Source of the DNA: Pseudomonadota bacterium
Lineage (GTDB): Bacteria; Pseudomonadota; Gammaproteobacteria; Burkholderiales; Thiobacillaceae
Assembly: GCA_021847835.1 (NCBI GenBank)
Contig: JAJZPR010000004.1
Span: 62,001-126,000, forward strand
Direction: 5' to 3'
DNA: 64,000 nucleotides
Shown here: positions 38,134 through 56,737 of the stretch, one piece after another
Numbering within the stretch: position 1 is the stretch's first letter
Layout: the number at the start of each line of letters is the position of its first letter
The notes under the pieces: model-generated
The model's database searches: none
Seen by the model: the letters and a program-made list of their open reading frames with translations, nothing else
Told to the model about the DNA's origin: nothing
Position numbers and translations under genes: made by a program

Positions 38134-38418
38134 TGCTCCGCAGTTTTGCCTCAACCCTTATGTTTGGGATGAATCAAAAATCAGACAATTCTGCCCGCAA
38201 TAATTGCTGGATATTGGGTGTAGGAATTGGAATAGGGTGGCTGATGGGATTGCTCGCAGCGGCGCCTCCCCCGTTGCTCGTCCCTCGCAGCGCTCGGTAC
38301 CAGCCTGCGGCTGTCCGTCGCAAGCATGCTTGCTCCGCGAACCCGGGCGGGTTCTCGCCCATCAGCCACGGCATGCGTGGTTGTTTATGTTTATGCAGGG
38401 AAATGGAGGAATAAGGAG

Positions 38419-38464
38419 TGGGGTGGCTGATGGGACTCGAACCCACGACAACAGGAATCACAAT
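38419..38464. repeat. attL-type direct repeat (46 bp)
   Basis: Identical to 56738-56783: TGGGGTGGCTGATGGGACTCGAACCCACGACAACAGGAATCACAAT. Confidence 0.93.
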
Positions 38465-38561
38465 GCGAAAATTCACAGGCCCACAAACCAAGCATTGGCG
38501 AGGCTTGGCGAGCAATATGGTATGATTTTTTGCACCGACGGGGACAAAACGGGGACACCTC

Positions 38562-39632
38562 ATGGCAACTTTTCACCAACGCGAAAGCGGACGCTGGCAA
38601 GCGAAGGTGCGCCGGGATGGCGGCGTGCAGAGCAGGACATTTGCAAAAAAAGTTGATGCGGAAGCGTGGGCACGGAAAGTCGAGTCTGAGCTTGAGCGCG
38701 GCGTCTGGCGCGACACAATCGAAGCTGAGCGCACTACGCTAGGCGAGGCGCTAGAACGGTACGAGCGGGAAGTCACGCCACGGAAAAAAGGAGCCGTACA
38801 GGAGTCCTACAAAATCGGAGCACTTCGCCGGTTGCCTCTTGCGAAGATGACACTGGCTAGAATCCGGGGGGCGGACATCGCGGCATTTCGCGACTCCGAG
38901 CTTGAGCGCCTGGCTCCGTCGAGCGTCGCGAAATACCTCGCGCTGCTGTCGCATCTGTTTGAGGTCGCACGGAAAGAGTGGGGCGTCGAAGTCGATAACC
39001 CGGTTCGAAAGATCAGCAAACCGAAAGTCAACAATGCCCGCTCACGGCGGCTTGGCCCCGACGAGATGCGCTACCTGCTCGCCGCCTTGGACGAGCCTGG
39101 TTGTTCAGTGAAAACGAAAGCGGGCGACAGGCGTAACGAATGGACGCCGTTGGTGGTTCGTTGGGCCATCGAGACGGCAATGCGCCGGGGCGAGATTTTG
39201 GCGCTCGAATGGCGGCACGTCGATCTTGAAAAACGAACCGCGCATCTGCCGGACACAAAAAACGGTACATCTCGGACCGTGCCGCTGTCGAGTGCGGCGG
39301 TCGCCCTGATCAAACCCGGCGGCAATGTGCAGCGGCTGAGAAAAGGGCGGGTTTTCCCAACCACTGCATCCGCGCTGAAGCAATCGTTTACCCGCGCCGT
39401 CAGCCGAGCGCGGCGGAATTACGAAGCCGATTGCGAAGCGCAAGGCAGAGAGCCGGCCCACGGATTCCTGGAAGATTTGCATTTCCACGACCTTCGCCAC
39501 GAAGCGACAAGCCGCCTCGCCGAGCGCCTGCAGCTCCACGAGCTGATGCGCGTCACCGGGCACAAAGACACGCGCATGCTCGCGCGGTACTACCACCCAC
39601 GAGCCGAAGACTTGGCCCTCAAGCTCGGTTAG
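38562..39632 (+). CDS. Tyrosine-type site-specific integrase
   Basis: AIETAMRRGEILALEWRHVDLEKRTAHLPDTKNGTSRTVPLS...FHDLRHEATSRLAERL...MRVTGHKDTRMLARYYHP (R-HxxR-H-Y). Confidence 0.95.
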   Translation: MATFHQRESGRWQAKVRRDGGVQSRTFAKKVDAEAWARKVESELERGVWRDTIEAERTTLGEALERYEREVTPRKKGAVQESYKIGALRRLPLAKMTLARIRGADIAAFRDSELERLAPSSVAKYLALLSHLFEVARKEWGVEVDNPVRKISKPKVNNARSRRLGPDEMRYLLAALDEPGCSVKTKAGDRRNEWTPLVVRWAIETAMRRGEILALEWRHVDLEKRTAHLPDTKNGTSRTVPLSSAAVALIKPGGNVQRLRKGRVFPTTASALKQSFTRAVSRARRNYEADCEAQGREPAHGFLEDLHFHDLRHEATSRLAERLQLHELMRVTGHKDTRMLARYYHPRAEDLALKLG

Positions 39633-39770
39633 CGGCCACGGCTGCGCCCACCACCATCAACGCTCCAGGCCGCTGTCGCGCGGACGCGCCCTGTGCGGCG
39701 TCATCGGCCTGGTCTCTGTTTTTGTGCTCGGTAGGTTTTTCCCCACCAGCAAACCAGGCGAGTAAGTGGT

Positions 39771-40058
39771 TTAACCCAAACCGGAGGCATTCAGCCTCCC
39801 GACAATCCGCGCGGCGAGCATCACGCCGTCGGCCGCCGCCGCCGGCCCTTCAAGCGCCCGACCAGCCAGCCACGCCAACACGATTTCAGCCCGGCACTCC
39901 GGCCGAGCCGCGAGCGCACGCGACAAGTCGCCGCCGCATCGTGCAAGCTCGTCACCACCCAGGGCGAAAACGTCGTCCGAGTACGAAAACGGCCTTCGAC
40001 CCTCTTCGATCTCGTGTTCAGTAAGCCACGCGGCGGGGTCGATCCCTTCTCTATTCAT
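39771..40058 (-). CDS. Hypothetical element protein
   Basis: MNREGIDPAAWLTEHEIEEGRRPFSYSDDVFALGGDELARCGGDLS. Confidence 0.5.
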   Translation of the reverse strand: MNREGIDPAAWLTEHEIEEGRRPFSYSDDVFALGGDELARCGGDLSRALAARPECRAEIVLAWLAGRALEGPAAAADGVMLAARIVGRLNASGLG

Positions 40059-40092
40059 GATTACGTTCTCCGGTAACGGAATAGCACGCAAA

Positions 40093-40122
40093 AGAAACCC
40101 CGGCACACGGCCGGGGTGCTGT
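40093..40122 (-). terminator. Terminator-like hairpin
   Basis: AAACCCCGGCACACGGCCGGGGTG. Confidence 0.5.
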
Positions 40123-40132
40123 CACTCGCGCG

Positions 40133-40450
40133 TTATTTCAGCCGGCCGATTTTCTTCAAGTGGGCGCCCGCACGCTCCGCTTCAGTGCATTGCTCGACCG
40201 GCAGCACGTTGCTCGTCGCGCATGCCGCAATGACGCTCATCAGCAGTTTTTCGCGGCCGTGCTGAATAAGATAAGTCTTCGAGAACGCATTGCACGGCGC
40301 CGGGTGAGCCGCGTCAAAAACGGATTTTTCGCCGGGGCAGGTCTTGTCGTGCAGGTCGAAGATATTGTCAGGCTCCGCGCTTTTCGACGCATGAGCGCCA
40401 CCAGCAAGCGCCAGCGCGGCGGCGGTGATGATGATGTGAGAGATTTTCAT
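40133..40450 (-). CDS. Exported hypothetical protein
   Basis: Signal peptide MKISHIIITAAALALAGGAHA; ACATSNVLPVEQC motif. Confidence 0.65.
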   Translation of the reverse strand: MKISHIIITAAALALAGGAHASKSAEPDNIFDLHDKTCPGEKSVFDAAHPAPCNAFSKTYLIQHGREKLLMSVIAACATSNVLPVEQCTEAERAGAHLKKIGRLK

Positions 40451-40493
40451 GTCAGTTCCTTTCGTTTGTGATGCCGCCAGCCGGCGGCTAAAC

Positions 40494-40513
40494 ACTTCAT
40501 CGAAAAGCGGAAG
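40494..40513 (-). promoter_or_regulatory. Element intergenic motif copy 1
   Basis: CTTCCGCTTTTCGATGAAGT (minus), next to hairpin GCCGCC-AGCC-GGCGGC. Confidence 0.7.
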
Positions 40514-40522
40514 CGCCGAAGC

Positions 40523-41017
40523 TCATTTACCGCTGCCGAAAAAGTGCATCGGCAGCTTGCCGACCGGCGGCGCTTCTTCTTGCGCCTTCCGGAAGGCCGC
40601 GTCTCGCTTTTCTTGATGCATGACCGCTTCGACCGCGCCGACCGCTTTTGCTGCAGCGTCACACTGAGCAAGCGGAACGTCGGTGCGCGTGCTGCACGCA
40701 TGCACGATGCGACGAGCAAGCTCGATGCGCTCTTCGCTCTCAACGAGATACAGCGTCGAGCAGCCGCCGCCGGCGCACTCGCCGAGGTCGCCGGCCGACA
40801 CCTGCGCGGCTTGCGTGGCCACTCGGGTTTCGTTTCCGGATGACTGAGAAGAGTAAACGTGCTTCACGGCGGCGACGGGCGCGGCGACCGCTGCTGCGAC
40901 GACACCGGCAGCGGCTACGCGTTTAGTGATGCCGAGCCATGAGATGGCTTCATGAGCGAATGTGAACCACTCGCGTGCCGCATTCGCGGCGGCCAAGATT
41001 CTGAAAAAAATGGGCAT
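40523..41017 (-). CDS. Membrane/exported hypothetical protein
   Basis: Hydrophobic segment AAAGVVAAAVAAPVAAV; ACSTRTDVPLAQC motif; C-terminus APPVGKLPMHFFGSGK. Confidence 0.6.
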   Translation of the reverse strand: MPIFFRILAAANAAREWFTFAHEAISWLGITKRVAAAGVVAAAVAAPVAAVKHVYSSQSSGNETRVATQAAQVSAGDLGECAGGGCSTLYLVESEERIELARRIVHACSTRTDVPLAQCDAAAKAVGAVEAVMHQEKRDAAFRKAQEEAPPVGKLPMHFFGSGK

Positions 41018-41050
41018 GTTGTGTGTTCCTTTGATTGATTTGGAGGGGGG

Positions 41051-41692
41051 TTACGCCGCCGCCGACCGCGCAGCCCGTCTCGCTTCCCGTTTTTCCTGGA
41101 ATTCAATCAATTTCGAAACGGCCAGCGACAGAAAGCTTTCATGCTCGGCGTAGTGCACTCGATACTTGCCAAGCCTGTCCGCCGCCCTCGCTACCTCGGC
41201 AATTTGAAAACGCCCAGGATCGGTTTCGAACTGGAGAACGGGATAAAATCCGGCGTCGAGAAATTCGTTGGTGATTTTCACCATCGCGACAAGCCCCTGG
41301 TGGCTTGAAACATCGACCGCCTCCAGGTCCGCTTCCAGCTTGCTTTTGTTGGCCTCGAACGCCTCTTTTGCTGAGTTGTTGACGCCCCACGCCTCCCGCA
41401 GTGCGCTCCCGCCCTTCATGTATTTCATGCGCACCGGGAAAAGTCCGTTGATGCTGCGCTTCACCAAGAAATACTCTGCACTTTTGCGGCCTTCGGTTTC
41501 CAGAAAAACAACATCCCCCGCCGAGACTTTGCCGATCTCAAACGCTCGCACACCGCCGCTGTACTGGCACCGTGACAAAACACGGCCGCAGGCTTCAAGC
41601 GCGGGCTTGTTCCCCGCACCTTCCTGGAATCCAGCCAGCTTTCCTGCCTTTTTGCCGTCTGCGGACTCGACCTTCAAAATGATTTTTCCCAT
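41051..41692 (-). CDS. Hypothetical element protein
   Basis: 213-aa ORF co-directional with neighbours, spaced to upstream motif copy 2. Confidence 0.55.
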   Translation of the reverse strand: MGKIILKVESADGKKAGKLAGFQEGAGNKPALEACGRVLSRCQYSGGVRAFEIGKVSAGDVVFLETEGRKSAEYFLVKRSINGLFPVRMKYMKGGSALREAWGVNNSAKEAFEANKSKLEADLEAVDVSSHQGLVAMVKITNEFLDAGFYPVLQFETDPGRFQIAEVARAADRLGKYRVHYAEHESFLSLAVSKLIEFQEKREARRAARSAAA

Positions 41693-41738
41693 GTTCCCAA
41701 TCCTTTCTTACTCATTAACCCCAACCAATGGGGGATGA

Positions 41739-42164
41739 CTACTTCGGCATAAAACGGAAGTCTTCGCACCGACGCTCGATCTGCAGCGAACGATACTGCG
41801 ACAGCGCAACACACCAACCGACGCCCGCCGGGCCTGCGGTGAGCGTGTCGGCTGTGTCGATGCGCTGGCAGTCGCGGCATGCGACGAGCCGCGTCTGTGC
41901 CTGCTTCTGCTGCTTCGTGATGACCGGCTCGCCGTTGTCACCCGCACCGATACTGCAAACAAGCCGGGTCAGCCGTGGCCGCAGGCTCCGGCCGCCGCGC
42001 GGCACGCGGTAGAGCTGGAACATGAAGCGCTCACGCTGGGTGTAGACGTGAATTGGATCGCCGAAGATTTCAGCCAGCCCGGCCTGCTTTTTGGTGGGCC
42101 TCGCGGGTGCAGGGCCGGCGAGGCCCTGCGGTGTTGTGGTGTCGGTGATTGTTTGTGTGTCCAT
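41739..42164 (-). CDS. Hypothetical element protein with Cys-rich region
   Basis: MDTQTITDTTTPQGL...TRLVACRDCQRIDTADTLTAGPAGVGWCVALSQYRSLQIERRCEDFRFMPK. Confidence 0.5.
   Translation of the reverse strand: MDTQTITDTTTPQGLAGPAPARPTKKQAGLAEIFGDPIHVYTQRERFMFQLYRVPRGGRSLRPRLTRLVCSIGAGDNGEPVITKQQKQAQTRLVACRDCQRIDTADTLTAGPAGVGWCVALSQYRSLQIERRCEDFRFMPK
41741..41760 (-). promoter_or_regulatory. Element intergenic motif copy 2
   Basis: CTTCCGTTTTATGCCGAAGT (minus), next to CCCC-N-GGGG hairpin. Confidence 0.65.
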
Positions 42165-42184
42165 GCTTTCCCTCCTGTGGGGTT

Positions 42185-42440
42185 GGTTGAATCCTGCTTT
42201 TCGGAGCCGCCTCGCTTTGTGAGGCTGGAGGGCGCGCGCCCGAAGGGCTTCACGCGGGGTTTCGGCGGGTTTGCAAGCCGGCATGACAGACGGGGTTTCG
42301 CGGTCGTGGAATACCGCAGGGAGCGCAGCGACTGAGGATATGCCGCGAAAGCCGCGCCGGCTGGCGTGACGGGTTGCTTTCCCGCCGCCGCGTGAAAGCG
42401 CCTGGAAGCCTTGGGCGGCTCCGAAAAGCAGGATTCAACC
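42185..42440. repeat. ~256-bp nested palindrome with 27-bp perfect terminal inverted repeats
   Basis: GGTTGAATCCTGCTTTTCGGAGCCGCC (42185-42211) inverted at 42414-42440, with nested internal inverted repeats. Confidence 0.85.
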
Positions 42441-42542
42441 CAGGGCTGGGAGACACAAACGGTGTTTTCACCGGCACAGCGCGGGAATCCGCGCCAGAAA
42501 TGCTTTCAGGCGCGCGCAGCGCATCAAAACCGCAGTTGCAGT

Positions 42543-42570
42543 GCGAAAAAAACCCCGCCGAAGCGGGGTT
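42543..42570 (-). terminator. Terminator after virB6-like gene
   Basis: Minus strand AACCCCGCTTCGGCGGGGTTTTTTT. Confidence 0.8.
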
Positions 42571-42581
42571 CTGTCTGATTG

Positions 42582-43568
42582 CTACTTGTCGCCGGGTGGC
42601 TTCGGCGTGCCTGACGGCTTCTGCGGCATCTTCGTCGCAGACAGCCTGCTCATGATGACCGCTCCGACGCTGCCTGCACCTGCACCGCCACCGCCGATCA
42701 TTGCTGCCGCCAGGTCGTCGGCTCTAAACAACATGAACGCGACGAAGACGATGACTGCAGCCGACGCCATGAACGCCCCGATCTTCGCTGCGATTTCTTG
42801 CATAAGCGGCACATCGGGGTCGCGGCTCATCGCCGCGATGCTGTCGGTGAACACTTCAATAGAGTTCACGGCGATCATCGCAATCGTGATGCCGACGACG
42901 AGCGCGAAACCCTGACTCAGCATGAATTGAAGCCAGTTTCTCGCCAGGTGCGACATCGGTGAGAACGGCATCCATGCGATCAGCAGCGGGCCGAAGATGA
43001 TCCCGATGTGCAGCGCCAGAAGTGGGCCGTAGAGCGCGAAGATCAGCGCGACGGACAGCAGGATCGCGAGCACGAAGAGCACAAGCTCGATCAGTGCTTG
43101 CGTGAGCGCCGAAACAAGCATGCCGCCGAAGCTCTCTTTGCTTGTCACGAAAGCTATTGCTTTCTCAACCACGGAACGCTCGTCCGGGTTCCTGGCATTC
43201 GGGAACATCGCAGTCGTGAGTTTTGTAATAGTCTCACTGATTGCGTCGGGGCCGCTCGACGCCCCGCCGGTTTTCAAGATCGGCTCAGTCAGCCCGGCGC
43301 TGAAAAACTTGCCCGCCGCATCCATCGTGCTCTTCCAGTTGTCGCCGGCGAGCAGCGACATTGGAATGATGAGGATCAGACCGGCACGCACGAAGCGAGC
43401 AAGCGCGCCGGATACCTCCCCCATCCACCACTGATAAACGGCGAACAGCAGCGCGAGAACGAACGCCAGCGCGAGCATCTGCAGCGCAATCGGAATAAAG
43501 ACAGTGTGCAGCTTCTCGGCTGACTCGATAAGCGGGCTCAAGAGCCCGGCGATGTCTCCAAGCGCCAT
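42582..43568 (-). CDS. TrbL/VirB6-family T4SS membrane protein
   Basis: 328 aa, multi-TM, LIPMSLLAGDNWKSTMDAAGKFF...ALYGPLLALHIGIIFGPLLIAWMPFSPMSHLARNWLQFMLSQGFALVVG. Confidence 0.75.
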   Translation of the reverse strand: MALGDIAGLLSPLIESAEKLHTVFIPIALQMLALAFVLALLFAVYQWWMGEVSGALARFVRAGLILIIPMSLLAGDNWKSTMDAAGKFFSAGLTEPILKTGGASSGPDAISETITKLTTAMFPNARNPDERSVVEKAIAFVTSKESFGGMLVSALTQALIELVLFVLAILLSVALIFALYGPLLALHIGIIFGPLLIAWMPFSPMSHLARNWLQFMLSQGFALVVGITIAMIAVNSIEVFTDSIAAMSRDPDVPLMQEIAAKIGAFMASAAVIVFVAFMLFRADDLAAAMIGGGGAGAGSVGAVIMSRLSATKMPQKPSGTPKPPGDK

Positions 43569-43570
43569 TT

Positions 43571-43840
43571 TCAGCCTCCGAAAATCAGGTCATACAAGAG
43601 CCACACGTAGCACGCGAGCGAGAACGGCGCGAGCATCGTGAGGCGTGGGTTTTGCTGGGCGAAGTCAATCGCCCAAGCGCGCCAGTCGAAGCCGCCGCCG
43701 TTCTCGTCGTTCGCCGGGTCAAGCCCGGCTTCACGGCGGCGTGCTACCTCCGCCATCAGCTCCGCGCGCTCAGCTTCGCCGCGCTCGACAAGCCGGGCGA
43801 CGAGATCGACGACTTTTGCTTCAGCTTTCTCGTTCATCAC
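43571..43840 (-). CDS. Small membrane protein in trbK position
   Basis: 89 aa with one C-terminal TM; between virB5-like and virB6-like genes. Confidence 0.55.
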   Translation of the reverse strand: MMNEKAEAKVVDLVARLVERGEAERAELMAEVARRREAGLDPANDENGGGFDWRAWAIDFAQQNPRLTMLAPFSLACYVWLLYDLIFGG

Positions 43841-44601
43841 TTGCCTCCTTTCGCGAACTCGTGCGGCAGCGGCAAGCGCGTCACCGGCGGCGCTTCAAGC
43901 TCTTTGCGCTTGATTGCGTCCATCAGCTCGGCTTCGCGCTTCTGCACGCGCTCAAGTTCTGCTTGCTTCAGCGCAGCTTCTCGCGCGGCATTCGCGTTGG
44001 CCGTGTGAATCGAGTCGCCGATCAGCCCCAGGACGGCCTGCATCTTGACGTTCTGGCCGGCGAGGAACTGGATGCCCTTCACGTTGGCGTCGATGCTCTT
44101 CACCTCCTCGGCCTGCCGCTGCACGTCGGCAGAAACTTCGGCCAGGCGCTTGAGCTTGGCCTGTTCCTGCTCGTAGGTCTGCTGGTAGATGCCGCCATGC
44201 CTGTAGGCCGCCTCGGCCTTGTATCGAAGCAGCTCGGACGGCGGAATCTTGAGCCTCGCGGCGTCCTGCTGCGCCTTCCTGAGCACAGCTTCGGCATCCT
44301 GGTAAACCTGCGTCGCCTGGCTCATGACGGTGTACGCCTCGGCCATCTTCTCCACCTGGTCGATGGGAAGCCCGGTCATCTGCGAAACCACGTCAGGCGA
44401 AAGCTGCCGAAGCATCTGCATGGTGGCCTGCGCCGTCATCAGCGTGTTCGATGTGGTCTGCACGGCCTCGCCGACCTGAGCCACCAGCTCTATATGGTTG
44501 AGGAGCTGAGTCACTTCGGTAGCGCCGCCGGTGGCGCCGCCGCCGGCGTGGGCGCTGGCGGAAGTGAGCGAGACGAGAAAAATCGTGATGTGCTTCTTCA
44601 T
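43837..44601 (-). CDS. TrbJ/VirB5-family T4SS protein
   Basis: Signal peptide MKKHITIFLVSLTSASAHA; QLLNHIELVAQVGEAVQTTSNTLMTAQATMQMLRQL. Confidence 0.7.
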   Translation of the reverse strand: MKKHITIFLVSLTSASAHAGGGATGGATEVTQLLNHIELVAQVGEAVQTTSNTLMTAQATMQMLRQLSPDVVSQMTGLPIDQVEKMAEAYTVMSQATQVYQDAEAVLRKAQQDAARLKIPPSELLRYKAEAAYRHGGIYQQTYEQEQAKLKRLAEVSADVQRQAEEVKSIDANVKGIQFLAGQNVKMQAVLGLIGDSIHTANANAAREAALKQAELERVQKREAELMDAIKRKELEAPPVTRLPLPHEFAKGGK

Positions 44602-44771
44602 TTCTGTTTCTCCTGTTGAGTGGCGGCGCGGCGGGCTGCTTCGAGTACGTTGCACGCGGGCTTACGATGTTTGTCACGGGCGCGTGCGGCTTCGAGCACG
44701 CTGCGATAGCGCGACGTGCGGAGCGGCAGCGGGTGAGTAACGATCAAGTCTGTTGATTGCGTTGTGCCCAT
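44598..44771 (-). CDS. Small hypothetical protein
   Basis: MGTTQSTDLIVTHPLPLRTSRYRSVLEAARARDKHRKPAC...; overlaps next start by 4 nt. Confidence 0.4.
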   Translation of the reverse strand: MGTTQSTDLIVTHPLPLRTSRYRSVLEAARARDKHRKPACNVLEAARRAATQQEKQK

Positions 44772-44772
44772 T

Positions 44773-45093
44773 TCAAAAATCCTTTCTCCACGCAAACCCG
44801 CGCGGCGTGATGACGATGTTTTTTGAGATCGCTGCACCGACGAGACCGCCGACGACCCAGCTCGCGAGATCGCCTGTATCGAAATGGCGGTCTGTTGATT
44901 CTTTCAGCACGCCGACAGCGGTCGCGGCAGCGATGCCGGCGGGCGGGCGGTCGAAATACTGAGAGACGCCAAATGACAGCGCGCCGCCGAGCGCAACATG
45001 CGCGATCTTGTCGTTCGGGTGCTCTTTCCAGTCCACCGCCGCTGCCGGCGAGGCGGCAGCGGCGGCGACGAGAACGAAAATGATCTTCTTCAT
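44773..45093 (-). CDS. Exported protein with glycine-rich hydrophobic segments
   Basis: MKKIIFVLVAAAAASPAAAVDWKEHPNDKIAHVALGGALSFGVSQYFDRPP. Confidence 0.55.
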   Translation of the reverse strand: MKKIIFVLVAAAAASPAAAVDWKEHPNDKIAHVALGGALSFGVSQYFDRPPAGIAAATAVGVLKESTDRHFDTGDLASWVVGGLVGAAISKNIVITPRGFAWRKDF

Positions 45094-45106
45094 CGCCGCC
45101 CCCGAT

Positions 45107-45544
45107 TTAGCGGTTCGCGGCGTTGAACGAGTTGACGAGCGACAGCGGCACGAAAACATCGCGTCCGCCGCTCGTGCGCAGCGTGTAGCCCGTCAAAGTC
45201 CGCTCGGTGATGTCGCGGCAAGTCTGGGTCGGTGCGCTGTTGCCGTTGCCGCCGATGGCGCCGCCGGCCTGTGCGCCGAGCGTTGCGCCAATCGCGGCGG
45301 CTGCCGCTTGCCCGCTGCCTTTGCCGACCTGGCTGCCGGCTCCGCCGCCGAGGATCGCGCCGAGCGCCGGGCCGAGCCAGCCGCCCGACGGTGCGTTGCT
45401 GGTGCATTCGGTGCGGGTGGTCGATGTGAACGCCGGCGTGATGCTGATTGCTTGCTCGATGACCTGCGCGGCTTGTGCGTGAGCCGCGCCTGCAGCGAAG
45501 AGCGAAGCGAGCAGCACGGCGGTGGTGATGGTGTTTTTGGTCAT
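45107..45544 (-). CDS. Glycine-zipper-like exported protein
   Basis: WLGPALGAILGGGAGSQVGKGSGQAAAAAIGATLGAQAGGAIGG. Confidence 0.65.
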   Translation of the reverse strand: MTKNTITTAVLLASLFAAGAAHAQAAQVIEQAISITPAFTSTTRTECTSNAPSGGWLGPALGAILGGGAGSQVGKGSGQAAAAAIGATLGAQAGGAIGGNGNSAPTQTCRDITERTLTGYTLRTSGGRDVFVPLSLVNSFNAANR

Positions 45545-45545
45545 T

Positions 45546-45728
45546 TCAATTCCTTTCTTGAAGCTGTTGAAGATGTTCAGATTTGTGCTCGATCTCGCCG
45601 TCGAGCGGCGCTGAGGTTGACAACACTGCAACCAGCCAGGCGCCGAACAGCACTGCGTTGATGAGCAGGCTGATCGCGAGGAGCTGGCCGCACGTCAGAT
45701 CGAGCAAGCGGTTAAAAATGTTGTTCAT
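45546..45728 (-). CDS. Small membrane protein
   Basis: MNNIFNRLLDLTCGQLLAISLLINAVLFGAWLVAVLS. Confidence 0.5.
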   Translation of the reverse strand: MNNIFNRLLDLTCGQLLAISLLINAVLFGAWLVAVLSTSAPLDGEIEHKSEHLQQLQERN

Positions 45729-45766
45729 GGTTCCTTTCCTCCCCGGCGTTGATGCCGGGGATACCT

Positions 45767-45786
45767 ACTTCAGCGAAAAACGGAAG
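45767..45786 (-). promoter_or_regulatory. Element intergenic motif copy 3
   Basis: CTTCCGTTTTTCGCTGAAGT (minus), next to hairpin CCCCGGC-GTTGAT-GCCGGGG. Confidence 0.75.
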
Positions 45787-45789
45787 CGC

Positions 45790-45815
45790 AAAAAAACCCG
45801 GCGCGGTGGCCGGGT
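45790..45815 (-). terminator. Terminator after relaxase gene
   Basis: Minus strand AACCCGGCCACCGCGCCGGGTTTTTTT. Confidence 0.8.
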
Positions 45816-45850
45816 TGTGGATGGTTTGGATGGTTTGGATGGTTGCGGAG

Positions 45851-48800
45851 TCAGCGTTCGAGGCCGCGATCTGTCGCTTTCTGAGCGTCTTTCACCTTCG
45901 TTTCGAGCTTGTCGCGTGCTTCGCTGCGCATGCTGCGTGTCTCAATCGCTGCTGAAAGCTTTGCGCGGATTGCTTCTTGAGTCGAAGCGCCGCGCCAGCC
46001 TTCGGCGTTGAGGCCGGACATCACCTTGTCCTGGGCCTTCGCCCACAGCTTGCCGACGCCCGACGTTTCTTTCGAGCGCATGCGGTCGCGCAGCTCGTCG
46101 CGGTCGCGGCCTGCGATCTTCTGTCCGACGGTATCGTGGCCGACGATGACGCGCTCGCCGATTTTGATATTCGTCTTGATGCCAAAGACTTCGAGCTTCT
46201 TGTCAACGACAACCGCTGTTTTGGTCGTCGCGCCGAGCGTCTTCGCCTGGCGGAGCTGGACTTCGCGCACGCGGCCGTGAAGCTCCGGGTGAAAGGTCTT
46301 TCCGTTGTTGTATGACAAATAGCGGTCGCCCTTGCTGTCGAACTCCCAGCGCGCCTTGCCTTTCTCGATATCTTTCGCGATCTTTGCCGGCTCCGGCATC
46401 TGGCCTTTCGTCTTGAGGGCTTTGGCGGCGAGGTCGCCGTCGCGCCGCTTCTCGTCTCCGGTGCGGTTGTCGCGAGAGCGCCGGTCATGCGCGGCAGCGC
46501 GAAGCGCGGCGTTTGCGTAGCGTTCTTCGGCGCGGTCCTTTGCCTGTTGGTCGCCGGTGCGCTCGGCCGCCTGCAGCTCGGCTCGTGCATCGTCAAGATC
46601 CTTTTCAAGCTCCCGTCGCTCGTCGCCAGGCTGGTCACGAGGCTGGTCGCCAGGCTGACGCTCAGGCTGACGCGGCTCGTCGGCTCGTGTGAAGCGCGGG
46701 CCGTCGGCGGCGGCGTCTGCGCGCTTGTAGTCTGCGGCACTGTCTTTGTCGCGCGCCCGGCTCATCTCTTTCTGCAGCTCGTCGCGCTGAGCGCTGGTGT
46801 GGTGATAAGTCATGCTCTCGCGGTGTCGGCTGGCGGCGACGTACGACAAGCTTCGGTCGCTCATTGCGGAGTCGTGTACGACGTGCGCGCGGTCGATTGT
46901 GACGCCCTGGCTCTTGTGAACAGTGGCGCAGTACGCATGATCGACGTGCTTGTATTGCTTGTCCGAGATCGTCAGTTCTTTGCCGTCGCCATCGCGCTTG
47001 AGCGTGAGCTTGCCGTCGCGGGCCTCGGTGACAGTCCACGTTTGGCCGTTCTTTACTTGTAGCGACTTGTCGTTTTGCAGTGTGATGACGCGATCCCCGG
47101 CTGCAAACTGCTTGTCTTTCTCTGCCGCGTCCTTTGTCGGCTGCGTCGTAAAACGGGCGTCTTCGCCCTTCAAGATGCCATGCTCACGGGCCAGGGCGCG
47201 TGCTTCGGAGTTGATCGCGGCAACGTCGGCGCGGCGTGCGGCGAGCGCCATGCTGCTTTTGCCTTCGCGCAGGTCAGAAACGACGTTCTGTGCGATCTCC
47301 CGGCGTGCCGCGTCGGTGTCGGAGTGCTCTTTCAGGTAGCCCCGTTCTTGCATGATTTCGACTGCTCTGCCGGCGTCGCCGGCCTTGAGCGCCAGGACCA
47401 TCTCTTTGTCTCGGTCATCGTGCTGGCGGCGGATCTCGTTCATCTCAGCGTGAACCCCAGCGGCTTCACGCATGCAGCGCATGGCGCCGCCGGCGTCGAT
47501 GGGCTGGAGCTGGCGGGTGTCGCCCACGAGCACGAGCTTTGCCCCGGCGGCGTAGCAGTGGTCTTTGAGCTGCGCCATGAGCCGGCTGCCGGCCATGCCG
47601 GCTTCGTCCACGACGACGACGGTTTGCCGGTCGAGCTGCAGTTCGCCTTTGTCGAGGCGGTTGAGCGTCGAATGAATGGTGTCTGACTTGATGCCTGAGC
47701 CTTCCTCAAGGCCCGAGGCCGCTTTGCCGGCGAGCGCGCAGCCGACGACTTGATTCCCGTCGCGCTCCCAGGCTTCACGGGCCGCGCCGAGCATGTACGA
47801 CTTGCCCGCGCCGGCCGTCCCCTCGACGATGGCGAAGCTGCGGCCGTTGTCTGTGATGTGCGCCAGTGCGTTTTTCTGCTCGTCGGCAAGCGTCCGTTTT
47901 GCTGTGACGGATTCGAGCGTCGCGGCGGAAACGCGGGCGTTCGTCTCGGTGTTCGCTGCGCGGGCGGCGTAGTCTGCAAGCCCTTTCTCGATCTCCAGCA
48001 TCTCCCTAGAAGTCCAGCGTTCTTCGCCGTCCCGGCCGACAAGCTGCACCAGTTCGCCGGACTTACGCAGCTCTTCGAGCTTTGCGAGCGCCCCGTCGAT
48101 GCCGCCGCCGCCGGAGGTCTGCGCCTGCTCGAAAGCATGGCGTTCGATCTGCTGGCGGGTGAGGGTTGAGGCTTCTGAAAACGCGCGTTCCGTGAGCTTT
48201 GCGGGGTCGCGTTCGGGGGTTGGTGCGGACTTCAGGGACTCGGCAGAAAACCCGTGCTCCTGTGCGGCGGCGCGGGCCGATTCGAAAGCCGTGGCGCGTG
48301 GGTTGTCGGCCTTCTTCTCGCGGGTGTTCAACGAGTGAATATCACGCTCGGCCGGCGATGTGCGGCCGGTCGCGGCTGCGGCTGCGGCGATCTCGGCGGA
48401 GCGGCTTGAAAGCTGATTTTCAAGCTCGGGCGGGAAGCCGGCAAGGCGGAAGCTCTTGCCGTCGCGGTCGATCTGGAAGCCGAGGCGCTCAAGCTCGCGG
48501 GCGAACTCGGCACGGTATGCGGTGCCGATGGCGTGCGCGTGCCGGGTGTCGAAGTCGATCCGCTTGCCGTTTTCTGAGATATTCGAGACGACCGCGTGCG
48601 TGTGCAAGTGCGGCTCGCCGGCCCTGTTTGAGCTGTGCTCGAAGGTGGCGGCGGCGATCTCGTGGTGCGGGATTTTCGTCGCGCCTGCGTGGCCTTCTCT
48701 TTGGACAAAAGCGCCGGACTGCTCGGCGTATGAAAGGGCCTTCTCGACCGCGCGTTGCTGGGCTTCGCTGATTGCGCGCTGCAGCTCTGGAGAGCCGGAA

Positions 48801-49114
48801 GCCCAGGCGATTGAGACGGACTTCGGCGCGTTGAAAACGAGGTCGTAGCCCGGCTTGTGGCGGTCTTCGCCGGCGTTGTTCGACAGCTTCTCGCCTGTGC
48901 GCGGGTCGTGGCCGGTCAGCGCTTTCACGAGGTCGCCGCGCTGCACTTGCTGCCCGGCAAAACCGCGTTTCTCAGCGAAGGCGCCGACCCAGCGGCCGGC
49001 GGGTTCGTCGTGCTGGCGGGCGTTCGGGTCTTCCGCGCCGACTTGGTAATTTTCGTAATATCCGGCGACTTTATTCACGTCCGCGCCGGCTCCGATTGAT
49101 TTGACTGCGAGCAT
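45851..49114 (-). CDS. MobF-family (TrwC/TraI-type) relaxase-helicase
   Basis: N-terminal [21 protein letters not shown]; helicase Walker [17 protein letters not shown]. Confidence 0.93.
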
Positions 49115-49116
49115 GC

Positions 49117-49305
49117 TTACCCCCTCCTGCTACGTGAAGAATTGCGCGGTTGCGGTTTCCATGACGGCGGCACGTACCGCTCGCAAGCGCCGCTCGGCTG
49201 AGAGATGCCGGCGAGACAAAAAATCTCGTTCTGTTCGCCGGCCATGCACGCGCTGCGGACATAGAAATTCAGGCAGTCGCGCTGCCGGCAGGTGGTCGGC
49301 TTCAC
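49117..49305 (-). CDS. Small Cys-rich hypothetical protein
   Basis: [44 protein letters not shown]; overlaps stop of upstream gene, ends at relaxase start. Confidence 0.45.
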
Positions 49306-49517
49306 CGCTCTTCTCCGGTTGTTCCAACGACGCCGTGGGCGGCGTCGAGAATCTGAGAAAGACGCGCGGCGGAAATGCCCCGCGCTTGAATCATTTTCAC
49401 GAGTTCGCGCTGCTCGGCTTCGCGGGCGGCGCGCTCGGCTTTTGCGAGCTGTGCGTCGATCTGCTTGATCTGGGCGGCGAGCTTTTCGCGGCGGGTTTTG
49501 AGTTTGGCGATGTCCAT
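49302..49517 (-). CDS. Small coiled-coil/accessory transfer protein
   Basis: MDIAKLKTRREKLAAQIKQIDAQLAKAERAAREAEQRELVKMIQARGISAARLSQIL. Confidence 0.5.
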   Translation of the reverse strand: MDIAKLKTRREKLAAQIKQIDAQLAKAERAAREAEQRELVKMIQARGISAARLSQILDAAHGVVGTTGEER

Positions 49518-49561
49518 AGTTTTGCTCCTTTTGGTTGACTGCCGCCGGGCGGCGGCTACTT

Positions 49562-49581
49562 ACTTCTGCAAAAAGCGGAAG
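49562..49581 (-). promoter_or_regulatory. Element intergenic motif copy 4
   Basis: CTTCCGCTTTTTGCAGAAGT (minus), next to hairpin GCCGCC-GGGC-GGCGGC. Confidence 0.75.
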
Positions 49582-49584
49582 CGA

Positions 49585-50082
49585 TCAGGCCGGCGGCCGG
49601 GGCGGGAATTTGGCAAGATCGACGCCCTGCGGGACGGGGCCGAAGCGGCGGGAATCGGTGGGGTCGGGCCATGCCTGGAACAGCACGAAGTAGCGCGACG
49701 CGGCGCGAACGAGAAACTGCGCGTCGTCCTCGTTTTGCCGTTTCTCGACGCCCTCGACGACGAGGCGGGCGCGGTATTCGCGGAAGCTAGGCACGCGCAG
49801 GAATTCGCCGAGTTGCTGCAAGAGCATGTCGAAGGCGCGGGCGCTGGCGGACAGTGACTCTTCGACTTCGCCGAGGCGTCTTTCGATGTCGGCGAGCCGA
49901 GAATCGTCAAAAGCCGGGGCGGCTGCAGGTGGTTGTTGCGGCTGCGGTTTTGAGACTGCGGCGCCGGTCAGCAGGATGCGCGCGAGGCGCGACTTCGGCA
50001 TGTTGAGAATCTTCGCTTGACGTTCCAGTTCAAGCAGCTCGTCGGCTTCGAGCCGAACGTCGATTTTGTGTGTTTTGCTCAT
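49585..50082 (-). CDS. Relaxosome accessory protein, ribbon-helix-helix (MobC/TrwA-like)
   Basis: MSKTHKIDVRLEADELLELERQAKILNMPKSRLARILLTGA. Confidence 0.6.
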   Translation of the reverse strand: MSKTHKIDVRLEADELLELERQAKILNMPKSRLARILLTGAAVSKPQPQQPPAAAPAFDDSRLADIERRLGEVEESLSASARAFDMLLQQLGEFLRVPSFREYRARLVVEGVEKRQNEDDAQFLVRAASRYFVLFQAWPDPTDSRRFGPVPQGVDLAKFPPRPPA

Positions 50083-50131
50083 GTCGTGCTCCGTCAGAAT
50101 GTCGGACGGCGGAAAAGCCCGCCGCTACAGC

Positions 50132-50151
50132 ACTTCAGGCAAAAGCGGAAG
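50132..50151 (-). promoter_or_regulatory. Element intergenic motif copy 5
   Basis: CTTCCGCTTTTGCCTGAAGT (minus), next to hairpin CGGCGG-AAAAGC-CCGCCG. Confidence 0.75.
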
Positions 50152-50285
50152 TAAAACGTCGGCGCACGTCGGGCAAGCGTCGGACAGCGGAAAGCCGCGT
50201 GGCTGCTGGGTTTGAGCCGCGCAGCGAGCGCACTCTGGTGGGTAGGGTGTATGAACTGAAAATGAATGCTGCTGACTGTGACCGC

Positions 50286-50320
50286 GCACGAAAAAAAGCC
50301 CCGGCTTTGAGACCGGGGCA
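50286..50320 (-). terminator. Terminator after coupling-protein gene
   Basis: Minus strand GCCCCGGTCTCAAAGCCGGGGCTTTTTTT. Confidence 0.85.
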
Positions 50321-50343
50321 AGGGCTGGCGCTGCGGAGAAGTT

Positions 50344-52050
50344 TTAGAGAAGGTCGAGCATGTCGGCTTCGGCCGCTTGTGCGCGATCCGTGCCGCCAGC
50401 CCGCTTCTGCTCTTGCTGTTGCACCTTCGGTTTCACACGCACGCGAGGCGGAGCGGCGACGAACGCTTCTGCTTCTTTCCGCTGCGCCGCGATCTGCAAG
50501 TTGACGACGGCGGACGGCACCGGCCCCGCCAGGTTGAAGATGCCGCGCAGGTCGGGCAGCGCCTGCAGCTCAGACGGCAAAACGACGCGGTCTTTGACGA
50601 CTTGCTCTTGCCAGTTTTCAGACTTGCTCGAACCGACTTGCATGCTTTGATGAGACTTGCCGCCGCTCTTCACGACGCGCGTCTTCTCTTCCTCTCCCAG
50701 ATAGCGCGACATGTATTCCGCTGTCTCGCCGTCGCTCACGCGCAGCACGAGCCAACTGCCGAGACATGCGAGAAAAGTCTGCGCGGTCTCGTTGCCATAA
50801 CTTTCTCGGAGCTGCGCAATCGTCTGAAGTCCGGCAAAGATCATGGCGCCGTGCTTTCTGCCATTCGTCGAGAGGTCGATGATGCTTTGAATCTTGCCGA
50901 GAAGCGGCAGCTCGTCGAGCGCGAAAACCACGCGGCGATCATGAGAAGGTGGCAAGCTCAAAACCGCGCGGCTCGCCACGTCCACACAGCACGCGATCAT
51001 GCTTTTCAGTGCGTCGCGGTGCTGCTGCTGGTAACTCAAAAACAGAAAACCGGCGCGGTCGGAATGCAGATACCGACGGATCGAAAAACCGTTCTGCGCG
51101 TCGGCGTTGGGGTCCAGATATTGCAAAAATTTTGCCGCGCTCGAAGAGATGCCACGGATCGAGCCGAACATGCGTTCGTTGCCGTCGGCCACCAGCGGCT
51201 GAGCCGGCGTTCCGGCGCACACTTCGCGCAGCTCTTCGAGATCGGCGACGACGAGAATCCGGAAAAGCTCTCCGTTTCCAAGACCGGCGGTGAAGCAGTG
51301 TTCGAGCACGGCTTCGACGAACGTCTGAGCGTACCCGTTCCACTCAGCCGCCGACCCTTCGCCGTCAGGGACAAGGCTCTTCGCGAGCGCCGGGATGTCG
51401 GCGACAGATTCAAGCTCGCACAGCGGCGACCAGCGCACGCAGCGTTCGTCGAACGGATTCAGAATCACGTCCTGGCCGCCTTCGCGGAAGTAGCGCGAAG
51501 TGTAAATGCCGCTTGCGTCGGCGATCACCGCGAGCGCGCCGTCTGCGCGCAGCGCGTCGAGAGCGTGCGTCAATGTTTGCGACTTGCCGGTTCCGGGTGA
51601 GCCCGCCAACAGAAAGCCCCTGGTCTCCAACTCGACGGGCACCGGCACGGCGCCGACGCTGAAGCGCGATTGAGAGTGCTTGAGCTGGCGGGCGACGGCG
51701 CGCTCGTTCGCCAGGGCGGCGCCTCGAATGTGCTCGTGTGGGTTCCGGCCGAATCCTGGAATGCCGGCCTTCTCCGCCACCCACGCCCAGCCGTTCCGGA
51801 AAAGATTGAAAATCATGCCGGCGATGAAGATGCCGGCGAAGAAAAGACCGAGCGACGGCGCCGCTTTGCCGTTCAGCAAATCAGGCACGAGGCCGACCGC
51901 AACGCCACCGGCGCCGACAGAAAGACTCAGCGCCCATCCGTGCAACGTCATCCAGCCGCGCTCCGCGAGCCAGGGGCGGACGAGCCACAGCCACACTGCG
52001 AGGCCGGCGGCGGTTGCGATGTACGCAATATGAAAAAAAATGTCACTCAT
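50344..52050 (-). CDS. Type IV coupling protein (TraD/VirD4/TrwB family)
   Basis: LLAGSPGTGKSQTLTHALDALRADGALAVIADASGIYTSRYF; DRRVVFALDELPLLGKIQSIIDLSTNGRKHG; GLQTIAQLRESYG. Confidence 0.88.
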   Translation of the reverse strand: MSDIFFHIAYIATAAGLAVWLWLVRPWLAERGWMTLHGWALSLSVGAGGVAVGLVPDLLNGKAAPSLGLFFAGIFIAGMIFNLFRNGWAWVAEKAGIPGFGRNPHEHIRGAALANERAVARQLKHSQSRFSVGAVPVPVELETRGFLLAGSPGTGKSQTLTHALDALRADGALAVIADASGIYTSRYFREGGQDVILNPFDERCVRWSPLCELESVADIPALAKSLVPDGEGSAAEWNGYAQTFVEAVLEHCFTAGLGNGELFRILVVADLEELREVCAGTPAQPLVADGNERMFGSIRGISSSAAKFLQYLDPNADAQNGFSIRRYLHSDRAGFLFLSYQQQHRDALKSMIACCVDVASRAVLSLPPSHDRRVVFALDELPLLGKIQSIIDLSTNGRKHGAMIFAGLQTIAQLRESYGNETAQTFLACLGSWLVLRVSDGETAEYMSRYLGEEEKTRVVKSGGKSHQSMQVGSSKSENWQEQVVKDRVVLPSELQALPDLRGIFNLAGPVPSAVVNLQIAAQRKEAEAFVAAPPRVRVKPKVQQQEQKRAGGTDRAQAAEADMLDLL

Positions 52051-52075
52051 GACGTTCTCCTTGGGATTTTAAAAA

Positions 52076-52366
52076 TTACGGCCGATAGCCGCCGCGCGGC
52101 TTCAGCAAAAACAGCAAAAGCGGACCGGCGAGCGCGGCAGCACCGGCGGCGCCGGACATCAAAAGCTCGCGGCGAGCGTGGCGAGCGCCGGGCAAGTCGA
52201 GCGTGAAAGCGTTGTAAGCTGCGAGCGCGTACCGCCCGATCTCTTGCGGCTCACTGTCAAAAATCAGGAAGTGCAGGTACAGCAGGACGCCAACCAGCGC
52301 GCCGAGCAGCGCGAGGCCGAAGACCAGCTTCGCCCGCCAAGCAACTTCATGTGTTTCTCGTTTCAT
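52076..52366 (-). CDS. Small membrane protein preceding coupling protein
   Basis: 96 aa with two TM segments. Confidence 0.5.
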   Translation of the reverse strand: MKRETHEVAWRAKLVFGLALLGALVGVLLYLHFLIFDSEPQEIGRYALAAYNAFTLDLPGARHARRELLMSGAAGAAALAGPLLLFLLKPRGGYRP

Positions 52367-52418
52367 GTTGTGGGTTCTCCTTTCGCCTTTCGCAGCGCCG
52401 CCAGGTGGCTGCTGAACT

Positions 52419-52438
52419 ACTTCAGGAAAAAGCGGAAG
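52419..52438 (-). promoter_or_regulatory. Element intergenic motif copy 6
   Basis: CTTCCGCTTTTTCCTGAAGT (minus), next to GCAGC...GCTGC inverted repeat. Confidence 0.75.
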
Positions 52439-52457
52439 CGCGTCGAGCGAAGCGGGA

Positions 52458-52493
52458 GCAAGGCTTGTCGCAAGGCTTGTCGCAAGGCTTGTC
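52458..52493. repeat. Three tandem 12-bp repeats GCAAGGCTTGTC
   Basis: Three exact copies, each containing CAAG-G-CTTG. Confidence 0.9.
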
Positions 52494-52513
52494 TAGATTG
52501 TTCTAGTTAGGCC

Positions 52514-52594
52514 TTTCCGAAACGTATTTCGGAAATAGATTTCGGAAATAGATTTCGGAAATGGATTTCGGATTCGGAAATGGATTTCGGAAAC
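52514..52594. repeat. Tandem quasi-palindromic ATTTCGGAAAT array (about 5 units)
   Basis: Units at 52526, 52539, 52552 and degenerate units to 52594; preceded by TTTCCGAAA. Confidence 0.88.
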
Positions 52595-52670
52595 AGAACG
52601 GCGCGACGGGCTGGGGGTCGGGGTGTCCGCGACGGCGTTGAGGCCGTGGCGGGCGTTTTGGTGGGGTTGC

Positions 52671-53534
52671 TTAGGCAGCTTTCAGGGTGCCGATGCGCCG
52701 GAGTGCTTCTTTGACGGTGCGCTTCGCGTAATCCTTCGGGTTTCGTTTGCCGCGCGCCCCCGCCTTCTCGGTCAGTTCCTTCTCCAGTCGCGCGGCTTCT
52801 TCGTTTACCTGTGACGGATTGTTCTCTGAGAGCCAACGGAGTCGGCCGATGACGTATCCAAAATCGCGCTCGCTTTCAGAAGACCAGCCGCCAAGCGATT
52901 CGTACATGTCGATGCTGCCGGCTGCTGGTTGTGAAGCACACGCCCCCCCATCATCCGCCCCAGCGGCCGGGGGAAGGGGGACGAGATCGCCGGCCGGGTA
53001 CAGCCGGCCCGAGCTGGTCGTCGTGATTTTCACGTAATTGCCGCCGCGCTTGTTGTTCTTGAAGCCCGCCAGCCTCCCCAGGTGTTCGCCGCTGCTGCTG
53101 CCTTTGTCTGCGCTGTGCACGCCGATGAGCCGCTGCTGCAGCGCTTTCCGCTCCGCCTCGTCGAGCGGGCGGGACACGGGGAGCCAGACGTGGCAAAGCC
53201 CCGGAGAGGTCTCGATGACCGCCGCCGAGAACTCCCCGGCGATCTTCGCCGCCCTGGCAGGCGTCACGTCGTCCAAGAAGACCATGGGCCAAGCCGCCGG
53301 GGTGCCGTCAGGTAGCCAACGGGCAGGACGGATATAGACCTCGGCGCCGCGTCGGTTCTCGGCCCAAGCCCACCCAAAGCTTTTCTCTACCTCGGCTCGG
53401 TCGCGGGCGCGCGCCAGGCCTTTTACGAGCGGATCCTGACCTGGGCGAGGCAGGATCGTGACGAGGTTGGCGAAGGTGATGCCGTGCTTCTGAAAAAAGT
53501 CTAGGAACCGCTTCTGTTCTTGCCATCCAGCCAT
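52671..53534 (-). CDS. RepB-type DNA primase (RSF1010 RepB'-like)
   Basis: MAGWQEQKRFLDFFQKHGITFANLVTILPRPGQDPL...WAENRRGAEVYIRPARW...PMVFLDDVTPARAAKI...CHVWLPVSRPLDEAER. Confidence 0.65.
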   Translation of the reverse strand: MAGWQEQKRFLDFFQKHGITFANLVTILPRPGQDPLVKGLARARDRAEVEKSFGWAWAENRRGAEVYIRPARWLPDGTPAAWPMVFLDDVTPARAAKIAGEFSAAVIETSPGLCHVWLPVSRPLDEAERKALQQRLIGVHSADKGSSSGEHLGRLAGFKNNKRGGNYVKITTTSSGRLYPAGDLVPLPPAAGADDGGACASQPAAGSIDMYESLGGWSSESERDFGYVIGRLRWLSENNPSQVNEEAARLEKELTEKAGARGKRNPKDYAKRTVKEALRRIGTLKAA

Positions 53535-53553
53535 TTTTGATTCTCCTTTCCTT

Positions 53554-53584
53554 CCCCCCCATGTAGTAAGAAGACATGGGGGGG
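53554..53584. repeat. Perfect 11-bp-stem hairpin, 9-nt loop
   Basis: CCCCCCCATGT-agtaagaag-ACATGGGGGGG. Confidence 0.9.
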
Positions 53585-53672
53585 CGTGTGCTTCACTATC
53601 TGATATTCCCCGAGGGGGCACCAAGCCCCCCTCGGCTGCCTATAGGCCTAGAAGGCCTATTAGCCTATAGGA

Positions 53673-53756
53673 ACCGGGGCATAGCTTCCGTTCACCGGGG
53701 CATAGCTTCCGCCCACCGGGGCATAGCTTCCGCCCACCGGGGCATAGCTTCCACTT
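53673..53756. repeat. Four 21-bp iterons (candidate oriV)
   Basis: ACCGGGGCATAGCTTCCGYYC x4, exact 21-bp period, abutting initiator-like gene. Confidence 0.92.
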
Positions 53757-53758
53757 AC

Positions 53759-54586
53759 TCATAATGTGGTTATTGCGTCACCGGCGATGATCACTCCTGC
53801 CGCCGCGAGACCTTCGGCGTCCTCGTGCAGCTCGCGCCGATGGTGCCGCAGCACTGATTTATGCACGCCGACGATAGTTAGTGCGTTGTCTATGCTGTAT
53901 TCCGCGCCGGGTTCGTGCGTGAGCATGAACCTCGCCACGGCCTGACTGGCGCCGTGCCGCAGCGCGATAATTTGCCGCAGGCGCCCCCGATAGCTGACCG
54001 GCATATCTTTGCCAATCAACTCTGTCCAAGCCTTTGAAAACGCAACCATCCAAAGCTCTCGTCGCGCATCGGGTCCGGCCAGCGGCCCAGCCTTCACAAC
54101 GGCGCGGTCTTTCATGACAACTCCGTTAAGCCGCGTGCCTGCCCTTGCCGGCACCTGCTCAACACCCTGATACTCGACGGTATCGAGAATGCCGGCAGTG
54201 ACCACGCCGAACCCCGGCATCGATTTGATACGGAGGTTTGACACACTGCATGTCCGCAGGTCGTTAGCCAGACCCTTCATTTGCGTCCATGAAAGTCTTG
54301 CCCGACCGTGGCTGAGCGCCGTCCGGAGCTTGCTCGGGTCAACGATGCAGCAATGCCGCCCAACATTGTCCAGGCCAACCAATTGAGCGACATCCCTGCA
54401 GCACTCCATAAAATCGGTGTGTCGCTGTCCGAGTCGGCCGGTGATCTGCGCAGAGCCCCACTGCGTTTCGACTGCCCATGATTTTTCAACGGGTCGGCGA
54501 GTCGGCTGAAAGATCCCGATACGCGCGACGGACGCCGTGCTCACGTCCTTGTGTTGGTGCTGGAGTTGGATGTGACTTTTAGACAT
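53759..54586 (-). CDS. Putative replication initiator (RepC-position, iteron-adjacent)
   Basis: 275 aa; overlaps RepA-like stop; immediately followed by iterons. Confidence 0.6.
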   Translation of the reverse strand: MSKSHIQLQHQHKDVSTASVARIGIFQPTRRPVEKSWAVETQWGSAQITGRLGQRHTDFMECCRDVAQLVGLDNVGRHCCIVDPSKLRTALSHGRARLSWTQMKGLANDLRTCSVSNLRIKSMPGFGVVTAGILDTVEYQGVEQVPARAGTRLNGVVMKDRAVVKAGPLAGPDARRELWMVAFSKAWTELIGKDMPVSYRGRLRQIIALRHGASQAVARFMLTHEPGAEYSIDNALTIVGVHKSVLRHHRRELHEDAEGLAAAGVIIAGDAITTL

Positions 54587-55960: not shown

Positions 55961-56268
55961 TGCTGGCCCCCTTCCTGCGCGGCGGCGGGTGCGGGGTACT
56001 TGCGCGGCCGACCGCGCTTGCGCGGCGCTTCGGCTGGCGGGGTGGCGTTGGGGGCGGGGGTGTCGGGACGGAACGTCCGGCGGGATTCGATCCAGGCGTT
56101 AATGTCGGCCACCAGCCACAGCAGGCGCGGCTGAGACTGGATAGGCTCCGGCAGCCCTGCCAAAAACGCAGGGCTGCGCTGCCCGGCGCGGTATGCGCGA
56201 ATGGATGCTGGGTTGGTTTGCAGGCGCTCGGCGAGCTGAGCGCCGGTGATGGTGTACAAGTCGGACAC
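55957..56268 (-). CDS. Excisionase/AlpA-like DNA-binding protein with AT-hook-like tail
   Basis: ITGAQLAERLQTNPASIRAYRAGQRSPAFLAGLPEPIQSQPRLLWLVADINAWIESRR; C-terminal KRGRPRKYP. Confidence 0.6.
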   Translation of the reverse strand: MSDLYTITGAQLAERLQTNPASIRAYRAGQRSPAFLAGLPEPIQSQPRLLWLVADINAWIESRRTFRPDTPAPNATPPAEAPRKRGRPRKYPAPAAAQEGGQQ

Positions 56269-56705: not shown

Positions 56706-56737
56706 TAGTGTCCGCTATCGCGGAAACCCTTGTTATA

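Follow-up and report, generated by a model that had tools for sequence, protein, structure and literature searches.

A hairpin motif shared by mobile elements is a candidate single-strand initiation site

An 18.4 kb integrated element, within a 64,000-nucleotide stretch of Thiobacillaceae DNA (hereafter, the window), carries a long palindrome with a conserved centre. We conclude that this hairpin probably represents a second class of single-strand initiation site (ssi), or single-stranded DNA (ssDNA) promoter, which is Frpo-like in action and non-homologous in sequence. A wider claim is, in our judgement, evenly balanced. This is that one hairpin motif serves as an ssDNA start signal, used by a conserved host factor, across phyla. 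It would be common to conjugative plasmids, integrative elements, microviruses and filamentous phages, and would constitute a second class of ssDNA promoter or second-strand origin that has gone unrecognised even in F. The first priming and expression of incoming ssDNA determines whether a plasmid survives host defences. Known ssDNA promoters are few, comprising Frpo/ssi sequences from enterobacteria and others related to them. If our interpretation is correct, a near-invariant core in plasmids, integrative elements and ssDNA phages from several phyla is a common, testable start signal. Leading regions would become recognisable outside enterobacteria, and a conserved host factor would be indicated. 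Resistance plasmids of F/IncI type carry the motif in their thousands, and we found no description of the site concerned.

The palindrome and its conserved core

An earlier note, made from the letters of the window, described a nested palindrome of about 256 bp with perfect 27-bp arms. That description is exact. The left outer arm (42185-42211, plus strand) and the right outer arm (42414-42440, plus strand), its reverse complement, are each 27 nt long and 100% complementary, with a spacer of 202 nt. The likelihood of such an arm pair arising by chance in 64 kb is negligible. Further inner segments pair in nested order, as claimed, and the 256 nt form a single long bulged hairpin. The predicted RNA fold of positions 42165-42460 has an energy of -175.5 kcal/mol (z -8.2). 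Predicted DNA folds are -101.1 kcal/mol (z -11.4) for the plus strand, between 42180 and 42445, and -88.4 kcal/mol (z -10.0) for the minus strand of the palindrome. The same note saw no convincing open reading frame (ORF), and we agree. A 181-amino-acid ORF (41739-42284, minus strand) begins within the palindrome but is mechanical; the true start of the gene at 41739-42164 is likely the ATG at 42164, preceded by GGAGG at 42171-42175, just outside the palindrome. This gene reads leftward, with 20 nt between it and the palindrome, and its ribosome binding site and ATG begin at the left base of the hairpin.

Two further copies of the palindrome, with the same type of outer arm, occur in the genome. 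The first (L019) is 89% alike to the window copy. When these two hairpins are compared, the outer arms differ by two compensatory changes along with a paired deletion in L019, against 5 broken pairs of 98. Compensatory changes in homologs, a check named in the earlier note, are present. The second copy (L020 8765-9014; G000:C77:47764-48013) has the same outer arms around a different core, GCATAAAG..CTATTTATCC, and is a natural core swap. Its element is syntenic with that of the window (integrase, TrbL, relaxase and type IV coupling protein). A homolog of the gene at 41739-42164 follows both hairpins. A second genus of the family (L215, L216 and L222) has unrelated arms of ~27 nt, ~165 nt apart, around the same core, again upstream of a DUF6573-like gene. 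Hence, the architecture is retained while the arm sequence turns over. We rejected a non-autonomous transposon, such as the miniature inverted-repeat transposable element suggested previously. The other copies are not dispersed: they are found in related elements, at an equivalent position and preceding the same gene, and there is no target-site duplication at the arm ends.

Elsewhere, only the palindrome centre (42294-42362) is conserved. A BLAST search of plasmids with the whole palindrome returned the centre alone, as matches of 50-66 nt in at least 269 plasmids; all were intergenic among the matches listed. On the plus strand this unannotated motif is CGTGGAATA-(apex hairpin)-TATGCCGCGAAAG, and a covarying stem encloses it. 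The minus, or "sense", strand (TTTCGCGGCATATCC..CGGTATTCCACG) reads cTTTCGCGGCATATCCTc-[apex]-ysCGGTATTCCACGrtc. It scores 61.8 bits with our covariance model, R1. In the corresponding alignment, A1, two conserved blocks stand out on the plus strand, which we take to be the transfer strand. These are CGTGGAATACCG (42305-42316), which is nearly invariant, and GGATATGCCGCGAAAG (42336-42351). The pattern scan required exact blocks, so this invariance is partly by construction and is inflated. Variants found by BLAST and by the model (L012, L166, L215 and F) show the real variation.

The motif is common to elements with an ssDNA phase: conjugative plasmids, inoviruses and Microviridae. A gapped pattern identified more than 119 loci in genome contigs from Actinomycetota, Lachnospiraceae, Pseudomonadota and a few labelled Bacteroidia. 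Viral contigs numbered 24 with this pattern and 45 with a looser one; about 40 inovirus-like contigs and two microviruses have the motif. R1 matched F (53997-54071) and ColIb-P9 (23710-23784), and the F version is present in at least 5000 plasmid records of F/IncI type. Across genomes the motif is sporadic (7 of 398 in a phylum sample), as expected of mobile DNA. Where one plasmid has multiple copies these share a single orientation. Rfam contained no family matching the palindrome, even at E<=5, with only a chance snoRNA match. BLAST of the inovirus core against annotated phages gave no match, nor did R1 against M13, Pf1, phiX174 and R388. A search of full-text papers for the motif letters gave a single, unrelated match. 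Separately, we observed the motif just beyond repC in pCCK381 (L008 5328-5396), an IncQ plasmid carrying floR. The same stretch, of 66 nt, recurs in several E. coli and Vibrio plasmids.

Strand preference of the hairpin

The stem beside the core covaries. On average 8.1 of 10 positions pair within a sequence's own arms, compared to 5.2 +/- 0.13 when arms are swapped (about 22 standard deviations). The distal arms also pair better with their own partner than when swapped between sequences. The inner helix has two invariant mismatches; pairs that have changed in a microvirus and in F support its register.

Mismatches in the outer stem are unevenly distributed. On the sense TTTCGCGG strand we counted 32 A.C, 44 C.T, 3 G.T and 9 A.G, while the four classes were about equal in the swapped-arm control. 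The mismatches that selection tolerates are therefore of the wobble type, G.T and G.A, when read on the opposite strand, CGTGGAATA..TATGCCGCGAAAG. This strand also has the better DNA fold in 92 of 97 cases.

The lifestyle of the host elements provides further evidence, drawn from annotated plasmids and marker-bearing phage contigs only. Inoviruses give an independent indication: the Zot/pI, pIV or RepG2P markers are opposite to the TTTCGCGG strand in 21 of 21 contigs, representing 10 flank clusters. Hence, CGTGGAATA is displayed by the virion strand. The motif of F and ColIb-P9 is co-oriented with the leading genes, for which the transferred strand is the template (PMC7736820, PMC11541004). 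It follows that the transferred strand also shows CGTGGAATA. Microvirus MG945503 obeys the same rule. Judged by sequence, the hairpin is selected on one strand, the same strand that is found single-stranded in two unrelated lifestyles. Together, the three strand results, from stem mismatches, inovirus virion strands and plasmid transferred strands, suggest that the hairpin works as ssDNA, on one strand. The earlier note had proposed a cruciform used in replication or transfer. A role in those processes is indeed favoured, although we replace the duplex cruciform with a hairpin of single-stranded transferred DNA.

Proposed function and its alternatives

In our model, conjugative transfer would be the time at which the element is single-stranded and the hairpin forms. 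The plus strand of the window would be the one transferred. Folding would display the core CGTGGAATA..TATGCCGCGAAAG, with its fixed mismatches, on the covarying stem. A host factor may then recognise the core as the place for starting a nucleic-acid strand on ssDNA, and the product would prime second-strand synthesis. In plasmid leading regions, the product may also transcribe the genes just downstream before the DNA becomes double-stranded. For the window, these would be the gene at 41739-42164 and those that follow. Filamentous phages would use the same core, on their virion strand, as the complementary-strand origin. We infer that initiation is the function and that transcription would be one output. 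The host factor could, at a guess, be RNA polymerase, which we prefer because Frpo works that way. Since conserved promoter boxes are absent, a primosome component or another factor is also possible. A DnaA-box hairpin of the ABC-primosome type was rejected; TATTCCACG and TTATCCACA agree at only 6 of 9 letters.

The genomic neighbourhood is consistent with such a role. The motif is a leading-region site, upstream of co-oriented establishment genes, in F, ColIb-P9, pWW0, pCCBH28525_KPC and plasmids of Serratia and Burkholderia. Methyltransferase genes adjoin it in F, ColIb-P9, Serratia and Burkholderia glumae, and are downstream of it in F and ColIb-P9. In pWW0 and L011 the motif adjoins ssb and recX-like genes, lying upstream of these in pWW0, while in pTZC1 it is upstream of ArdC. 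Among the nearest downstream sense ORFs (n=76) we found N6_N4_Mtase (6), ArdC (5), ParB (4), DUF932 (3) and SSB (2). Methyltransferase, ArdC, ParB and DUF932-type classes have been reported in leading regions (PMC11541004).

Several observations weigh against this interpretation. No -35/-10 pair is conserved at a fixed distance in either direction, and a simple promoter of this type within the stem seems unlikely on those grounds. The sequence TTGAC occurs in the 3' arm of the stem in 35 of 97 cases, with no TAnnnT at 16-18 nt. For annotated plasmid sites, the nearest downstream gene is antisense in 4 of about 14. A simple ORF caller applied to all loci revealed no overall bias in neighbour-gene orientation, which is why the annotated and marker-bearing set was used alone. 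The strand rule has a clear exception in microvirus PQ006669 (L167 4024-4098), where the motif is on the gene (virion) strand. Two actinobacterial plasmids, with the motif in front of a divergent mobC-relaxase, would possibly break the rule too, if their oriT polarity is ColIb-P9-like. The oriT of the window's element, on which the assignment of the transferred strand depends, is a candidate only. Finally, Lachnospiraceae have dispersed copies of the motif, 28 nt from DDE transposase genes, and we know of no ssDNA phase for these.

The first alternative is that the hairpin is transcribed and serves the downstream gene as a leader or riboregulator, or else acts as a 3' structure. Strong covariation, a very stable RNA fold and the position directly 5' of a gene, both here and in F, all fit a structured RNA of this kind, which the earlier note had also suggested. 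However, the strand with biased pairing is antisense to downstream genes in plasmids and sense to genes in inoviruses, so no single RNA role fits both. The rule linking phage virion and plasmid transfer strands better suits ssDNA, as does the near-identical core across phyla in elements with a common ssDNA phase. Given also the lack of an Rfam match, a structured RNA is unlikely. We regard as very unlikely a second alternative, in which the RepB-type primase of the element, and not a host factor, uses the hairpin for priming in the manner of an IncQ-like ssi. The presence of the motif in F, ColIb-P9, pWW0, inoviruses and microviruses is at odds with this, because none of them is known to encode a RepB-type primase. 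It is true that a RepB-primase-domain protein and a RepA-like ATPase are among the products of the element, and that the motif is about 200 nt beyond repC in IncQ plasmid pCCK381. The pCCK381 motif borders the floR segment, though, and may have been imported.

Less probable again is a folded-ssDNA substrate for recombination or transposition, either an attC-like site or a preferred target of insertion sequences. In many Lachnospiraceae loci a distance of 25-30 nt separates the core from the end of a DDE transposase gene, and there are genomes with 5-7 copies. Conversely, most other loci have no adjacent transposase, and neither a crossover-type motif nor a cargo array is evident. Moreover, the window element has its own tRNA attachment sites, and inoviruses and F-type plasmids contain the motif as a constant component. 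The least probable explanation is a duplex cruciform, or a hairpin for transcription termination or insulation. Long perfect arms located between genes are as expected for either. Yet arms without a core would be enough for this purpose, and the strand-asymmetric mismatches speak against simultaneous selection on both strands. Furthermore, in F and in the window, the motif is upstream, not downstream, of genes in the sense direction.

The Lachnospiraceae loci have a recurrent arrangement. In L025, L038, L088, L100, L106 and others, the core is 25-30 nt from the end of a gene encoding a DDE transposase of ~485 amino acids, on the opposite strand. Dispersed copies beside such genes occur in genomes G003 (5 copies) and G004 (7 copies). 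Such an arrangement points either to an insertion sequence that bears the motif or to one for which the hairpin is the target.

The host element and known initiation sites

The mobilizable or conjugative element spans 38419-56783. Its ends, attL (38419-38464) and attR (56738-56783), are a 46-bp exact direct repeat equal to the 3' part of tRNA-His (56738-56813). An additional 15-nt copy of the att/tRNA-His sequence, GGGTGGCTGATGGGA, lies at 38235-38249, ~180 bp outside attL, and is perhaps a remnant of earlier integration. A tyrosine integrase gene (38562-39632) adjoins attL. The hairpin is located between a TrbL/VirB6-like gene, upstream (42582-43568, minus strand), and the DUF6573-like gene (41739-42164, minus strand; 141 amino acids). 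The second gene downstream (41051-41692, minus strand) belongs to no family that we could find. Transfer and replication genes are all leftward. They include a MOBF (TrwC-type) relaxase-helicase (45851-49114), a NikA-like/ribbon-helix-helix protein (49585-50082; a weak match, below cut-off), a TrwB-type coupling protein (50344-52050) and a TrbJ-like gene. The interval 50083-50343, adjoining the NikA-like gene, is the candidate oriT. The RepB-primase-domain protein (52671-53624) forms an IncQ-like replication module with 54579-55544, and the module includes the RepA-like ATPase. Beside these rep genes are iteron-like tandem arrays (52458-52493, 52526-52591 and 53673-53752), likely the oriV. The sequence TTCCGYTTTW-N(3-5)-GAAG occurs six times on the minus strand (40495-40512, 41742-41759, 45768-45785, 49563-49580, 50133-50150 and 52420-52437). 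Several copies are at gene ends, where the reading frame then terminates in -FRFxxK.

Our motif resembles the IncQ (RSF1010) sites ssiA and ssiB in being a hairpin start site on ssDNA, and the window element has an IncQ-like module with a RepB-primase domain. It differs in occurring in elements not known to encode RepB; the collection searched did not include RSF1010. Complementary-strand origins of ssDNA phages, namely the M13 minus origin and the phiX174 primosome assembly site, are likewise noncoding hairpins, consistently on the virion strand. Those origins differ in that R1 matches none of M13, Pf1 and phiX174, and our motif is shared with plasmids.

The closest parallel is with Frpo1 and Frpo2 of F and ssi1-3 of ColIb-P9, described as ssDNA promoters (Masai & Arai 1997, as cited in PMC9849209 and PMC11541004). 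F contains Frpo1 (L021 13553-14012), Frpo2 (8165-8640) and, as a third and unrelated site, our motif. ColIb-P9 has three Frpo-like repeats, which from their positions we take to be ssi1-3, with the motif as a fourth site. Eleven ssi were reportedly cloned from F and other plasmids by Nomura et al. in 1991, and one of these could coincide with the F site. R1 gave no significant match to the Frpo1, Frpo2 and ssi1-3 regions, and the F site at 54 kb shares with Frpo2 only a 13-nt word (best E 0.14). We observed that GTGAATACCGGAGGGA, within Frpo2, is similar to GTGGAATACCGGAGGGA in the motif, and that TGAACAGCCCACA is present both in Frpo2 and at the 54-kb site. These resemblances are possibly due to chance.

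The likeness is one of design. Both types of site form a long imperfect hairpin in leading regions, with the same strand logic, and the transferred strand is predicted to fold into a long stem-loop, for the window on the assumption that this is the plus strand. Both are directly upstream of establishment genes of the ssb or methyltransferase type. In pWW0, the motif is upstream of the recX-like and ssb genes, a position like that of Frpo2 upstream of ssb in F. Unlike Frpo/ssi, the motif has a GC-rich core with invariant mismatches in place of conserved -35/-10 spacing. It also extends to several phyla and to ssDNA phages and, in F and ColIb-P9, is additional to the known sites.
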